Assembly (NCBI GenBank): GCA_900696575.1
Contig: CAADHD010000027.1
Coordinates: 1 to 64,000 of the forward strand
Source of the DNA: an uncultured Bacteroidota bacterium
GTDB lineage: Bacteria > Bacteroidota > Bacteroidia > AKYH767-A > OLB10
DNA length: 64,000 nt
Direction: 5' to 3'
Part shown: positions 47,716 to 53,510 of the stretch, piece by piece
How positions within the stretch are numbered: position 1 is the stretch's first letter
Layout: every line of letters starts with the position of its first letter
Made by a program: the position numbers and the translations under genes
Notes under the pieces: generated by a model
What the model was told of the DNA's origin: nothing
The model's database searches: none
What the model saw: the letters and a program-made list of their open reading frames with translations, nothing else

Positions 47716-50700
47716 TCAATTCACTTTCGCCATCTTCTTGCTTTTCACAATTTTTCCATCCACAACGAGGGTGTAGGTATAAACGCCTGAATATAGTCTG
47801 GAGCCGAATACCTGCAGTTCGCCATTGCCTTTTTCGGTTATGCGGTATTGATTGATCTGCTGCCCGCGCTCATCATAAAAGAAGATAACGGCATTAGTGA
47901 AGTCGTTAGTAATTGACCAGCGGATGATGGTTGATTCTGAAAACGGATTAGGATCCGCTGTTAAGAGTTGAAGCGATTTAATATTCTTCAATTCTATTGA
48001 GCCTGTTTCATCAGGATTGTTTGGGAGGCGCAGGTTGCAGCAGGAGTTGATTTGTTGCTGTAGGGAATCAAGTCTTGTGAACAGGGAATCTAATAAATGG
48101 GATTGTTGCTGATGACCGTGGATTAAAAGAGCAATGAATTCTGAATAATTCAAAGCTAAAAATTCCTTTTCCGGATAAATAACAGTCCCGGAATCTGAAA
48201 GCCATTCCGGCTCAACAAATGGCTTTACAAGCTGAGGAAAAAAACCGGCCACTTCTTGTGAAATCATTCCATAATGTGTTCCATGAGGAAGATTCATCTG
48301 AGGCGCAACAATGGTGTCAAACTCAAAGGAGTAAATATGGATGCTGTCAAGAACACTGAATGAATCAGGAAGAAGGCTTATATTATTTTTAAGACTTGAA
48401 TCGGAAGGCATGAAATTCACTGTTGAATAAACCGGCCCGCTGAAATATCCTGCAGCCACCGGACATGTATTTATTCCGGGTGCGCAATTAGGATTCTGAA
48501 CTGTAGCATACATACCATAAGCAAAAGTTCCTCCTTGTGCATTAAAATAAGCTCCATAATTACGATCGCTACCGCTTGCAAAGAAGTTTCCGCCAAGATT
48601 TCGGCCACGTAAAGTGTTCCTGACCCCTGTGCTTGTTCCCTGAACGCCAATCTGGCTGTAATATGGATTATCCGCTGTACCCAGATGATTACCCCAAATG
48701 GATGAAGTATATTTTTCGACTTCCTGAGGCAATGTTGTTTCAACATAAAAGTGTGGGCGATTCCAAACTGAAAAAGTTAAAGGCAAGGCAGTAGTTGAAA
48801 AATCGCGTTTGATAATAACATTTTCCTCCTGGGGATATATTGTCAAATAATCTTCAGTAGTTGAATTAAGCCCCCAAGGCCCAAGTCTTCTGAATGTTAT
48901 CGGCTTACCCAAAGTTTCTATGATTGATTGCCCATCGGTTATTTGACTCAGAGGAGTTCCTGAATTATTCTCAACATAAATTTTGAAGTGATCGCTGCTT
49001 GGAATATTTCCGGGAGCAAGTACCGGTTGATTGGAATAAACAATCAATCCAAACCTTGTATTACCATCCACATGGGTTTGAACTGCCAATGGAGTTTTAA
49101 TGCCAATGTTTGTATTGTAAGTTGGCAAAATCGCGGCAGGCGGTGTGTTTGAAAACAAACCTGCACCTGCATTTTGAAAAGTATAGAATAATTGCTGAGA
49201 AGGATTGGTTAAATTGGTATTTACACCAAAATGACTGCCGTCATCAAAGGCAATGGTGTTACACAATTCAGTAGAGCCGCTAACGGCTGAAAACTTGACC
49301 ACGTGGTTAATGGCAGGTCCGGGAGTCTGGCAGGCAAAAACTCCGCTATTGCCGCCTTCATCGTACACAAAAATTACATCACCATTGGCATCAACGCTTA
49401 GAACGCCTTTTTGCAGGTCAGGGTTCGCAATGGGCGTTACATTATTGGTAAGGTTACGGAATCTTAAGCCTGCTAATTGAGGAGATAAAGCTGTGGAATT
49501 TATTTCAAGCGTATTCAGCGGAGGAAATGCACTTGAACAATTGATACCGACAAAATGAGGCTCAGGATTCTGTCCATTCATCCGCTGCGTATTGATAAGC
49601 AAATCTCCTTGATCAGTATTTCGAAAATCAGTCCATACACCATTGGCAACATTGATATTGTAAGTATGCGAAAGCCGCAACTGCGCATTATCTGCATCCT
49701 GTATATGCAGTTTACGATGCGGCCCGCCTGAAACATTTGACAGACCTATGCCTACATTTATTTGATTGTCTCCTAAAATCATTTTGTTATCATTAAGAAC
49801 TGTGGCATTAGCGCCAATGGCTGCGGCATTTATTAAATTACTGATAATGCCTGATCCGCTATTAAAACCGAGAAAAGTATTCTCGGAACCTATAGTATTT
49901 GAAAGCCCGGCATCAGCCCCTATGAAAACATTATTAATGCCTTTTGTATTTCTGAATCCGGCACGTCTTCCAAAGAAGGAATTCTGACTCCCAGTTGTAT
50001 TGGATGGTCCGCTTTCTGATCCATAAAAACTATTGTAATCGGCATCATTTGAGAAGCCCGATTGAAAACCCGAAAACACATTCTCATTCCCATTGGCATT
50101 TCTTCCGCTTTCGTATCCTGAAAATACATTGAAATCTCCTGAAATAAACTGCTGACCAGAACTATTACCAATAAATAAATTTTGACTGCCTTCGTTAACC
50201 GTACCGGTAAACATCCCAATAAAAGTATTCAAATTTCCCGAATTTCTGAATCCACTTCCTCCGCCAACAAATACATTTGATACACCCGTATTATCCTCAC
50301 CTGAACGACTTCCTACAAATGTATTTTCTCCTCTGTCATAATTTCTTCCTGCATTCCATCCGACATAGGTATTACCCCCCTGAACCGAGTTATTATATCC
50401 AGCATCCATCCCGAAAAATGCATTGGCAAATCCAGTGGAATTGTTTCTTCCGGCCCCAACACCCACAAAAATATTCTGAGTACCCCAGTTATGCAGCACG
50501 GTTTCATTGTTTATTCCAATGCCTGTATTCGGGAAATTGGCATCCGGTAAAATATCGAGTATGTCATTGCCCGGCATGTGGTTAAGGCCTATGCCGATGT
50601 GGCCGGGTGTACGGTCTATGATCAGGCGCTGGTTGTTGAATATGCCGTTGCCGGCATTGGTGTAAAATCGGATGGGTTTATCCAGTTCATGTTTTATATT

Positions 50701-50844
50701 CAAATCCGGCCCCCCTGGATTAATATCCCAACCAAGATAATCCGCTTGTGAAAACCAAGTATTTGGTGTTATTGTAGCTTGTCCAAAGGTTTTAAAACTA
50801 AAGAATGAGCTTATACAGATAATTAAATATGTTATATTTTTCAT
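47716..50844 (-). CDS. Large secreted protein with 16-17-residue head repeats, peptidase S74 chaperone domain and T9SS sorting domain
   Basis: A 1,042-residue protein with a signal peptide (MKNITYLIICISSFFSFKTFG). Residues about 120-340 hold some 13 repeats of 16-17 residues with the pattern N-x-F-x-G-x2-[AS]-G-x2-N, like trimeric adhesin heads. A domain near 810-880 (DSSLKNNISLLPDSFSVLD, then GMISQEVAGFFP) matches the S74 intramolecular chaperone of phage tail fibres. It is followed by a coiled coil (SHLLDSLFTRLDSLQQQIN) and a final T9SS sorting domain starting LTADPNPFSES. It is probably a trimeric surface fibre. The first in-frame TTG (50853) lies inside the upstream gene, so ATG 50844 was chosen. 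Confidence 0.85.
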   Translation of the reverse strand: MKNITYLIICISSFFSFKTFGQATITPNTWFSQADYLGWDINPGGPDLNIKHELDKPIRFYTNAGNGIFNNQRLIIDRTPGHIGIGLNHMPGNDILDILPDANFPNTGIGINNETVLHNWGTQNIFVGVGAGRNNSTGFANAFFGMDAGYNNSVQGGNTYVGWNAGRNYDRGENTFVGSRSGEDNTGVSNVFVGGGSGFRNSGNLNTFIGMFTGTVNEGSQNLFIGNSSGQQFISGDFNVFSGYESGRNANGNENVFSGFQSGFSNDADYNSFYGSESGPSNTTGSQNSFFGRRAGFRNTKGINNVFIGADAGLSNTIGSENTFLGFNSGSGIISNLINAAAIGANATVLNDNKMILGDNQINVGIGLSNVSGGPHRKLHIQDADNAQLRLSHTYNINVANGVWTDFRNTDQGDLLINTQRMNGQNPEPHFVGINCSSAFPPLNTLEINSTALSPQLAGLRFRNLTNNVTPIANPDLQKGVLSVDANGDVIFVYDEGGNSGVFACQTPGPAINHVVKFSAVSGSTELCNTIAFDDGSHFGVNTNLTNPSQQLFYTFQNAGAGLFSNTPPAAILPTYNTNIGIKTPLAVQTHVDGNTRFGLIVYSNQPVLAPGNIPSSDHFKIYVENNSGTPLSQITDGQSIIETLGKPITFRRLGPWGLNSTTEDYLTIYPQEENVIIKRDFSTTALPLTFSVWNRPHFYVETTLPQEVEKYTSSIWGNHLGTADNPYYSQIGVQGTSTGVRNTLRGRNLGGNFFASGSDRNYGAYFNAQGGTFAYGMYATVQNPNCAPGINTCPVAAGYFSGPVYSTVNFMPSDSSLKNNISLLPDSFSVLDSIHIYSFEFDTIVAPQMNLPHGTHYGMISQEVAGFFPQLVKPFVEPEWLSDSGTVIYPEKEFLALNYSEFIALLIHGHQQQSHLLDSLFTRLDSLQQQINSCCNLRLPNNPDETGSIELKNIKSLQLLTADPNPFSESTIIRWSITNDFTNAVIFFYDERGQQINQYRITEKGNGELQVFGSRLYSGVYTYTLVVDGKIVKSKKMAKVN
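49830..50485 (-). repeat. Coding tandem repeats of the head region
   Basis: About 13 units of 48-51 bases encode N-x-F-x-G-x-x-[AS]-G-x-x-N-x(4-5). The DNA is only loosely repeated, so the units are old. The glycine positions are strictly kept while the exposed positions vary strongly. Confidence 0.8.
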
Positions 50845-50845
50845 G

Positions 50846-51793
50846 TTATTCAATCTTGATAAGTTTATGTAATGTAGAGGTATTGTCTTTATATATTAGT
50901 TTTAAAACGTAAACACCGGCCTTTAAAAAGCCGAGATTAATTCTTGAAATTGAATTTCGGGAATTCTCTAGCTCAGTTGCAGTAATTAATGACTTACTGT
51001 CAATGTCATAAATTTCGAATAAAATTGCTTTTTTGTTTTCAAATTGTATATTTACTGATTCAAGAAAAGGGTTCGGAGAAATGAGTACTTCAGTAGCATA
51101 GGAGGAATTTTTAATTCCAGTTAAACTATCTACCATAACGGTAAAACTGTCGAAGAAATAGTAAGCCGCAGAGCTTGGTATAATGAAGGTTGTATCTGTA
51201 TGCGCATCATCAAAAAAATTTCCGACTGATAAGAATGCATAATTAGAATCAGCTATAAAGCTACCTTCTATTTTTACCCAGTTTAGTGTATCGGAAATTA
51301 TTGAATCAGTATAAATATGAGCAAAATTATTTGTTGGCGGAGGGTTACTTAAAGTATAGCTTGTTGTACTGAATAGTACCCCTAATTTATTACATGGAAT
51401 TTGTTTTCCACCCCCTCCGGCCAGCGAAACATAAAATGAATAATAATATTTTACTCCTATCTGCAAAATGCTTGTTAACTCACAAGTAAAATATTCACGA
51501 ATGTTTTGTACTGGTCTATAGTAAGCAATGAAACCCACATAGGCAGAACCATGATTCGCGTATTGAAATCCACAAAAATTCTGGGGCACTGCGGTATTAC
51601 CATTCATCCAGTCGCATTCATGAAAATAATCAGGGGATTCATTACTTGGCCACCATCCAACTGCCTTATCTACCTGATTATTAAAATGCGGACACTCAAC
51701 CGTATCCTCAAAACTCGGATTAGGCACAAGGTTAATTTGTGCTTGCACTTTAATGTAAACTATCAATAAACAAAATGCTAGTATGTATTTCAT
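50846..51793 (-). CDS. Secreted T9SS cargo protein, module copy 1
   Basis: A 315-residue protein with signal peptide MKYILAFCLLIVYIKVQAQ. The mature start INLVPNPSFEDTVECPHF, then GWWPSNESPDYFHECDW and FTCELTS, forms a domain of about 210 residues common in Bacteroidota secreted proteins; it looks like a beta-sandwich and may bind carbohydrate. The last 75 residues, from LISPNPFLESVN, are a type A T9SS sorting domain. It is a paralog of the protein at 52536-53453 and ends one base before the start of the head-repeat protein, so the two are probably made together. Confidence 0.8.
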   Translation of the reverse strand: MKYILAFCLLIVYIKVQAQINLVPNPSFEDTVECPHFNNQVDKAVGWWPSNESPDYFHECDWMNGNTAVPQNFCGFQYANHGSAYVGFIAYYRPVQNIREYFTCELTSILQIGVKYYYSFYVSLAGGGGKQIPCNKLGVLFSTTSYTLSNPPPTNNFAHIYTDSIISDTLNWVKIEGSFIADSNYAFLSVGNFFDDAHTDTTFIIPSSAAYYFFDSFTVMVDSLTGIKNSSYATEVLISPNPFLESVNIQFENKKAILFEIYDIDSKSLITATELENSRNSISRINLGFLKAGVYVLKLIYKDNTSTLHKLIKIE

Positions 51794-51805: not shown

Positions 51806-52532
51806 TTAATTTTTAATGGAAGCAGTTATTTGCTGTTTCAGTACTTCAATATCTGCTTTTAGCTGCATAACCAAAGCCATCAAATCGGTTTTGCCTTCAT
51901 TTGTTATCAAAAATAATTCTTTGGTAGCTAAAGAGCCGTTCACTTCAAGCGTTGCCTGCGGCCTGTCTGTGTTAATGCCTGTAAACCTGCCGCCTATTAC
52001 CGTGCAATCGCTGCAGTTTACTTTTGTATGGCTGCCAATGGCTATGGCATTATTCACTTCCAAATCAGAACCGGAGTGGCTTCCGATAAAGGTATTGCCG
52101 TTTCCGGTTATGTTTTGCTTGCCGGCCCCAACACTCACAAAAATATTCTGAGTACCCCAGTTATGCAGCACGGTTTCATGGTTTATGCCAATACCTGTAT
52201 TCGGGAATACCGGCATCCGGTAAAATATCGAGTATGTCATTGCCCGGCATGTGGTTAAGGCCTATGCCGATGTGGCCGGGATTGACATCAATGATCATGC
52301 GTTGGTTGTTGAATAATCCAACCCCATTAGCTGCGTCAGTGAAAAAACGAATAGGTTGATTTAACTCGTGTTTAATAAATAATGGGGTAATGTTAGTAGG
52401 GGTTAAATCCCATCCTAAAAATTCATTCCCGCCTAAAACCCATACGTTTCCCGGAGTTGTTGACTGTGCAAAGGCTGCATTGCATATCATGGTTATAGCT
52501 GAGATTTGTTATAATTGAATGAGTTGTTTCAT
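51806..52532 (-). pseudogene. Broken head-repeat protein gene (module copy 2)
   Basis: Two overlapping open frames, 52490-52176 and 52240-51806, are halves of one gene related to the head-repeat protein at 47716-50844. Two lesions are visible. The natural ATG at 52532 is followed at codon 8 by an in-frame TAA (52511-52509) within the signal peptide. A one-base insertion near 52204-52212 then shifts the frame, shown by comparison with the intact copy: GCC and CCG are separated by 7 bases here and 6 there. The remainder holds two or three head repeats, a coiled-coil end (LMALVMQLKADIEVLKQQI), and no S74 or sorting domain. A sequencing error could explain one lesion, but hardly both. Confidence 0.8.
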
Positions 52533-52535
52533 AAT

Positions 52536-53453
52536 TTATAGTTTTTGAATTTTTTGAATTGAAAATGTTTTTTTAGAAATGAGTTCTATCAGATATAAGC
52601 CAGGAGGAAAATTGCTCAAATCAATTTCGCCATCATGATGAATTAATTCGAACTTTCGGCCACTGTAATCTATCAGATTAACAGTTATAAGTGATTCAAA
52701 CCCAGACTTGATTGCAATGCTACCGGTTGTCGGGTTCGGATAAATAGTTAAATGCTTGACAGGATTTTCATTTATGTTTAAGGCAGTATCTTCCGTTAAA
52801 GAAATAGCGTCAATATAATAATATGCATAAGGATAAGCTGGCGGAAAAAAAATAACAGAGGTTAGAGAGTCACTGAAAACTCTGCCAATGGTCATAAAGG
52901 TATAAGCTGAATCTGCTATAAAACGGCCGCTTACTAAAACCCAATTTGCCGTATCGGTGATAACACTATCAGTATAAAGCTGCGCATAATTTTGGATTGT
53001 AAATGGTGAGTTTACATTAAAATCAACCGTACTGAAAAAAGTGCCTATCATATTACAGGTTAGCCGGTAAAAAAGGTCGCCTACGGAAAGGTAGAAGGAA
53101 ATATTATATTTTTTGCCGATGTTTAATGGAGAAAGAAGTTGACAGGTGAACGATTCCGTAAAATTGCTAATGCTACTTGAATAAACTCCGATTCCTGTGT
53201 ATGCAAGTCCGTCTTGTGCGAATTGATAGCCTCGATAGTTGCTCGGTACCGAAGTCGTTCCATTTAACCAATCGCATTCATGGAAATAATCAGGAGTCCA
53301 TGAACTTGTATGCCATCCGACAGCTTTATCAATTTGAGAGGCAAAGTGAGGGCAACTCACCGTATCCTCAAAACTTGGATTAGGCACTAAATTAATTTGA
53401 GCAAATAAAACCTGAGAGTAAAATAAAGCGGAATAAAAGCATATTTTTTTCAT
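52536..53453 (-). CDS. Secreted T9SS cargo protein, module copy 2
   Basis: A 305-residue paralog of the protein at 50846-51793. Signal peptide MKKICFYSALFYSQVLFAQ, mature start INLVPNPSFEDTVSCPHF, then GWHTSSWTPDYFHECDWLNG and FTCQLLSPLNIG. The C-terminal sorting domain starts LTIYPNPTTGS. The open frame reaches 53507, but the signal peptide places the start at ATG 53453. Three bases separate its stop from the start of the broken head-repeat gene, the same arrangement as in copy 1. Confidence 0.82.
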   Translation of the reverse strand: MKKICFYSALFYSQVLFAQINLVPNPSFEDTVSCPHFASQIDKAVGWHTSSWTPDYFHECDWLNGTTSVPSNYRGYQFAQDGLAYTGIGVYSSSISNFTESFTCQLLSPLNIGKKYNISFYLSVGDLFYRLTCNMIGTFFSTVDFNVNSPFTIQNYAQLYTDSVITDTANWVLVSGRFIADSAYTFMTIGRVFSDSLTSVIFFPPAYPYAYYYIDAISLTEDTALNINENPVKHLTIYPNPTTGSIAIKSGFESLITVNLIDYSGRKFELIHHDGEIDLSNFPPGLYLIELISKKTFSIQKIQKL

Positions 53454-53510
53454 GCGTGTAAAATTAATATAAAAGAATTTTTTTAAAAAAAACGAGTAGC
53501 CATTCAAATA

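Follow-up and report, generated by a model that had tools for sequence, protein, structure and literature searches.

The window, a stretch of 64,000 nucleotides from the genome of an uncultured Bacteroidota bacterium (assembly GCA_900696575.1, contig CAADHD010000027.1), encodes a repeat fiber in which an S74 domain with an intact Ser/Lys dyad is followed by a coiled coil and a T9SS sorting domain (CTD). We hypothesize that this protein is a T9SS-exported trimeric fiber that cuts itself off its export tag after export. We consider this reading somewhat probable rather than secure, as we infer the cutting, its timing, the disulfide and the release from sequence, structure models and analogy. The first-pass annotation of this DNA had drawn attention to the order of fiber, S74 domain and export signal, and to the logical problem that self-cutting would part the fiber from the signal that exports it. 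Both the layout and the problem are real, and they occur in many genomes.

Layout of the Fiber Protein

The fiber gene (47,716–50,844; this and all other features given here are on the minus strand) was read as a single open frame of 1042 aa with its ATG at 50,844. Its product comprises, in order, a signal peptide, head repeats, a long middle part, the S74 domain, a helix, a linker and the T9SS CTD. The Sec-type signal peptide covers approximately aa 1–21 (50,782–50,844), with a cut before Gln22 placed by eye. The head repeats, N-x-[FY]-x-G-x2-[AS]-G, occupy aa 124–330 (49,855–50,475) and number 12 by the strict pattern and 13 by a looser one, in agreement with the approximately 13 N-x-F-x-G-x2-[AS]-G repeats first reported; after shuffling of the protein (1000 times), matches averaged 0.015 and never exceeded 1. 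PHROG tail spike and virion structural profiles matched the head (aa 243–417), and a PHROG tail fiber profile matched the S74 part. A sequence search of the PDB returned nothing beyond a chance match (E 0.46), and the whole protein as a query against the genome contigs found no relatives. In a related genome, two contigs (L253, L266) stop within head repeats, and fiber genes with long repeats are therefore probably under-counted in draft genomes.

The S74 domain, an intramolecular chaperone and autoprotease type (aa 814–874; 48,223–48,405), scored 26.3 bits with PF13884, above the cut-off of 22, and 32 bits in the search of its own genome, which bears out the S74-like region previously placed near aa 810–880. 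The coiled coil and sorting domain proposed to follow it were also recovered. The former is a predicted C-terminal helix of the S74 unit (aa 901–937; 48,034–48,144), which in the model ends in Cys935-Cys936 (48,037–48,042) plus one further residue and leads into a low-confidence linker. The latter is a T9SS type A CTD (aa 965–1038; 47,731–47,952) whose TIGR04183 score barely clears the cut-off (23.2 vs. 23 bits; 27.5 bits when the genome was searched) and is marginal taken alone; we accept it because its predicted fold matches solved T9SS CTDs. The host genome has T9SS machinery, including PorU (1352.6 bits) and SprA (2616.5 bits), and 150 TIGR04183 matches. The initial description of the gene had missed the intact SDxxxK dyad, the cysteine pair at 935–936 and a T9SS partner gene one base upstream.

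Catalytic Motif and Predicted Structure

The S74 domain of the fiber starts with P-S-D-S-S-L-K and so carries SDxxxK, which is the motif given for S74 in PMC10769870. Both the predicted nucleophile, Ser814 (48,403–48,405), and the predicted catalytic Lys819 (48,388–48,390) are present. As described in PMC8326128, the equivalents in MyRF are S587 and K592, and either S587A or K592A abolishes cutting. The bond cut in MyRF is P586|S587 (PMC8326128), which the predicted cut of the fiber, P813|S814, matches. The same paper reports that MyRF cutting requires the trimer, that MyRF S587A and endoNF S911A crystallized as trimers, so that the serine is not needed for folding, that the chaperone of phage S74 proteins is freed once cut, and that in endoNF the cut waits for folding of the stalk, with a stalk arginine taking part. 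In a bacterial surface fiber, Bd3182, the substitution S782A stops cutting (PMC10769870).

An AlphaFold2 single-chain model of aa 790–1042, made with 48 homologues, had a mean pLDDT of 86.5 and a pTM of 0.57. It matched the endosialidase chaperone 3GW6 (Foldseek E 1.3e-3, prob 1.00, TM 0.33 over the two-domain model) and the ICA domain of MyRF, 7DC3 (VIA Z 9.5, 2.8 Å, 125 residues); by these matches the S74 fold and the C-terminal trimerization helix are both present in the fiber. Most rows of the VIA list for this model were CTD-like beta-sandwiches. The CTD part matched the CTDs of PorU (6za2; VIA Z 10.7, 2.5 Å over 88 residues, 25% identity), mirolase (8qb1; VIA Z 9.9) and PorZ, and the Ig-like CTD fold is thus present as well. 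Set against S74 structures, as the first-pass annotation had advised, the fiber has an intact Ser814/Lys819 dyad in a predicted fold that matches 3GW6 and 7DC3.

Conservation of the Dyad

We surveyed 61 genomes, including that of the window, and found PF13884 matches in 43. Fetching 133 regions around these gave 146 S74 matches, from which 11 with a domain E > 0.01 were dropped and one duplicate was removed, leaving 134 S74 domains. Nine of the dropped matches were second pieces of counted domains, and the other two (L109, L160) also read SDxxxK; five regions (L109, L135, L158, L160, L163) had no counted domain. CTD state was assigned with home-made profiles, and L165, which stops at a contig end, was counted as lacking a CTD although its state cannot be read. 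When ten tails were checked with NCBIfam, TIGR04183 matched nine, four of them above the cut-off (best 30.8 bits) and five below (L105, L141, L099, L096, L106), with none in the tenth.

Serine and lysine were both kept in 58/59 S74 domains with a CTD after them and in 74 of the 75 without. The sole CTD-bearing exception, L122, has Phe in place of Ser and retains the Lys, coiled coil, Cys-Cys pair and CTD, making it a natural uncut control; the alignment of the CTD-less exception, L161, begins inside the S74 domain (partial). Positions 1, 2 and 6 (S, D and K) were the most conserved columns in both groups, followed in the CTD group by a Gly (56/59). As a control for detection bias, the search was repeated with a profile lacking the first nine S74 positions and so blind to the dyad. 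It returned no intact dyad-less S74, only the same places, decayed fragments and chance matches; the extra low-scoring places (L234–L240) proved to be chance matches apart from two decayed fragments, L234 and L235. We also drew a phylum sample, in which 35 of 148 genomes had matches at E ≤ 1e-8 and part of the matches listed was taken in: 30 loci chosen automatically (2 already in the first survey) and 20 regions, with 50 new ORFs counted. Among the matches sampled, the dyad was present in 9/9 with a CTD and 41/41 without. In the window's genome all three S74 proteins have both dyad and CTD. Pro preceded the Ser in 12/59 domains of the CTD group and 7/75 of the CTD-less group, a difference that was not significant (Fisher 0.084). 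Four single ORFs (L096, L083, L129, L280) have a tandem S74 pair, each with Ser and Lys, and then a CTD, which would mean two predicted self-cuts per T9SS protein.

Since S74 proteins with Ser changed to Ala (3GW6, MyRF S587A) still form trimers, selection for cutting is the likeliest reason for the conservation of the dyad, and self-cutting by S74 has very probably been retained. The first-pass annotation had left room for cleavage having been lost, and had named absence of the catalytic residues throughout the family, together with a full-length protein on the cell, as the finding that would speak against self-cutting. With the dyad in 58/59 and 9/9 CTD-bearing domains, the residues are not absent from the family and such a loss is unlikely. 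We rejected the idea that the dyad itself had been lost on these counts and because the dyad-blind search found no hidden class.

Gain and Loss of the CTD

CTD-bearing S74 ORFs made up 56/131 of those examined and CTD-less ones 75/131. A tree of 130 of the 134 S74 domains, built without the motif letters, placed 16 changes of CTD presence on its best topology vs. 43 for shuffled labels. At least five of these changes sit on strongly supported branches, with the dyad kept. A single lineage of CTD-bearing S74 domains was rejected on the same 16 label changes, at least 5 of them strongly supported. Among the complete CTD-less ORFs, 62/70 have a Sec-like N-terminus by a crude rule. CTD-less S74 ORFs include L012 and L046, of the same genus.

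The Cysteine Pair at the Coiled-Coil End

In 33/56 CTD-bearing S74 ORFs, two adjacent cysteines are found where the coiled coil ends, in the stretch that links S74 to the CTD, vs. 0.8 expected (maximum 5) when the letters of the region were shuffled. None of the 75 CTD-less S74 ORFs has such a pair (Fisher 3e-16, a p value that ignores kinship), nor was one found within 60 aa of the CTD in 28 other T9SS proteins, drawn from the top TIGR04183 matches of this genome. In the phylum sample the pair was seen in 2/9 ORFs with a CTD vs. 0/41 without (Fisher 0.029, weakened by kinship). On the S74 tree, a test of independent pairs for Cys-Cys against CTD gave five pairs, none opposite, too few for significance. 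The Cys-Cys pair is not essential, since 23/56 CTD-bearing proteins lack it, as do 7/9 in the phylum sample. Three CTD-bearing proteins (L098, L137, L087) have C-x4-C near the same spot instead. The pair sits on the CTD side of the predicted cut. As a parallel three-stranded coil would gather six cysteines, an inter-chain disulfide ring at Cys935-Cys936 is a natural guess.

Proposed Mechanism and Alternatives

In the reading that we favor, the fiber chain would reach the periplasm by way of Sec and then be led through the T9SS by its C-terminal CTD. Three chains would come together through the S74 unit and the coiled coil, with trimer folding beginning at the S74 end. Once the stalk before S74 is correctly paired, Ser814 and Lys819 would cut between Pro813 and Ser814. 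Because this site precedes the S74 domain, the coiled coil and the CTD, the cut would remove chaperone and export tag together, and because it would separate the fiber from its own export tag, it should follow translocation or be completed after it. The fiber would then be free, or held non-covalently only. By stapling the S74-CTD stubs of all three chains, the Cys-Cys pair may keep the trimer from being pulled apart while the T9SS handles each CTD. Even with the coil trimerized and stapled already in the periplasm, cutting could be delayed until the stalk has folded, as described for endoNF.

Of the readings left for the architecture, cutting after export fits best: the CTD has been retained with a sound structure, cutting would sever it, and a trimer is expected to be needed for cutting. 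Some observations weigh against the proposed mechanism. A review (PMC10202324) proposes that T9SS effectors fold while still in the periplasm, though it calls the stage of their final folding unclear, and trimerization and cutting could accordingly precede export. Further, the CTD-less S74 proteins, mostly Sec-exported in appearance, indicate that S74 can work without the T9SS, and L122, a homologue with a CTD, has lost the Ser.

A more elaborate scheme, which we offer tentatively, is that the three CTD-tagged chains, with the S74 coil and a disulfide ring, form a tripod of three CTDs that is exported C-terminus first. The fiber would fold outside from the S74 end, folding would trigger its release, and the adjacent CBM-like T9SS protein described below would cooperate. 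If so, the T9SS would pass a quality-controlled trimer and release would be gated by folding.

The proposal that T9SS cargo folds in the periplasm (PMC10202324), and the finding of the Cys-Cys staple only where a CTD follows, also suit a scheme in which the trimer is assembled and stapled in the periplasm and cut there or en route, the fiber staying docked non-covalently on its S74-CTD stub and the whole being exported as one unit. We regard this as unlikely, because a trimeric fiber is a large cargo, because in phage S74 proteins the chaperone leaves after the cut (PMC8326128), and because a stub pulled by its CTD would come away from the fiber. The export problem would vanish altogether if S74 acted as a trimerizing chaperone only and the full-length fiber were displayed on the cell, and L122 demonstrates that the Ser can be lost. 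This is improbable, because conservation of the domain peaks at Ser and Lys even though S74 proteins with Ser changed to Ala still trimerize (PMC8326128), which points to cutting. A periplasmic cut, after which the fiber stays or exits by another route, the CTD serving to export the stub alone or surviving as a passive relic, accords with CTD-less S74 proteins with signal peptides in the same class (e.g., L012 of the same genus) but is very improbable, as a CTD that retains a good motif and fold, occurs in 56 ORFs and was repeatedly gained or lost is expected to have a use.

Comparison with Known Systems

Each part of this system is already known on its own: bacteria can carry S74 fibers (Bdellovibrio), S74 can release a protein tethered at its C-terminus (MyRF), and the T9SS exports cargo with a CTD. 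In the open-licence PMC literature, where partial coverage means that absence is not proven, we found no paper on the combination of S74 and T9SS; in genomes, S74 with a T9SS CTD is common.

A close bacterial likeness is to the MAT fiber Bd3182 of Bdellovibrio bacteriovorus, a non-phage trimeric surface fiber with an SDxxxK S74 domain for which self-cutting at the Ser has been demonstrated (PMC10769870). In that paper, MAT fibers have a conserved beta-rich domain of ~130 aa directly behind the signal peptide, and those with S74 are described as ending in it, whereas the window fiber adds a coiled coil, Cys-Cys pair and T9SS CTD, so that its cut would remove the export tag. In MyRF, as in the fiber, S74 has the functional part on one side and a C-terminal tether on the other, with Pro before Ser, and its trimer-gated cut frees an N-terminal trimer (PMC8326128), as is predicted for the window fiber. 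However, the tether of MyRF is an ER membrane helix and its product a transcription factor, while the tether of the window fiber is a secretion signal.

Phage tail fibers and endosialidases (3GW6, the T5 L-shaped fiber) share the S74 fold and SDxxxK. In a tblastn comparison, a Bacteroidota S74 domain found matches in 1287 phage records, and SDxxxK was present in 9/10 fetched phage loci, the tenth being a broken frame. Unlike the window fiber, phage S74 proteins end ~90–132 aa after the Ser and have no sorting domain. With T9SS type A cargo (gingipains, RemA, the PorU CTD) the fiber shares a Sec signal peptide and a C-terminal Ig-like CTD, but in such cargo the CTD is removed by PorU, whereas the window fiber additionally has a predicted autoprotease of its own ahead of the CTD. 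Type A CTDs lead to static anchoring at the surface or to release into the medium, according to PMC12618676, and self-severing would be one route to such release. It would extend the S74 release principle of phage fibers, MyRF and Bdellovibrio fibers to a secretion tether, accompanied by a repeated Cys-Cys feature that we saw only where S74 and T9SS tag meet. If S74 cuts only as a trimer and the cut removes the export tag, the protein would be a natural reporter of where cargo folds and trimerizes.

A Partner Gene and a Second Copy of the Pair

Directly upstream of the fiber gene, with one base between its stop and the fiber ATG, lies a gene for a 315 aa protein (50,846–51,793) with a predicted CBM-like beta-sandwich and a T9SS CTD (TIGR04183, 36.8 bits). 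Its model (mean pLDDT 77.8) matched CBM4, CBM16 and CBM61 (VIA Z ~12) and CBM22 (Foldseek), and also the K2 adhesin domain of gingipain. Since other beta-sandwich proteins score as well as the CBMs, glycan binding, or a glycan-related function, is suggested at most. Relatives of the partner lie just upstream of 14/56 CTD-bearing S74 ORFs and of 0/75 CTD-less ones; among ORFs preceded by 900 or more bases of sequence, the counts are 14/45 and 0/63, respectively (Fisher 1e-6). The fiber and partner pair recurs on contig C32 of the same genome. Further upstream in the window, the ORFs give a degenerate second copy of the fiber head (51,806–52,490), which is spread across two overlapping frames and has neither S74 nor CTD, and, upstream of it, a second copy of the partner gene (52,536–53,456). 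In the region from 51,806 to 53,456, either the gene pair was duplicated and the copy has decayed, or the assembly is wrong.
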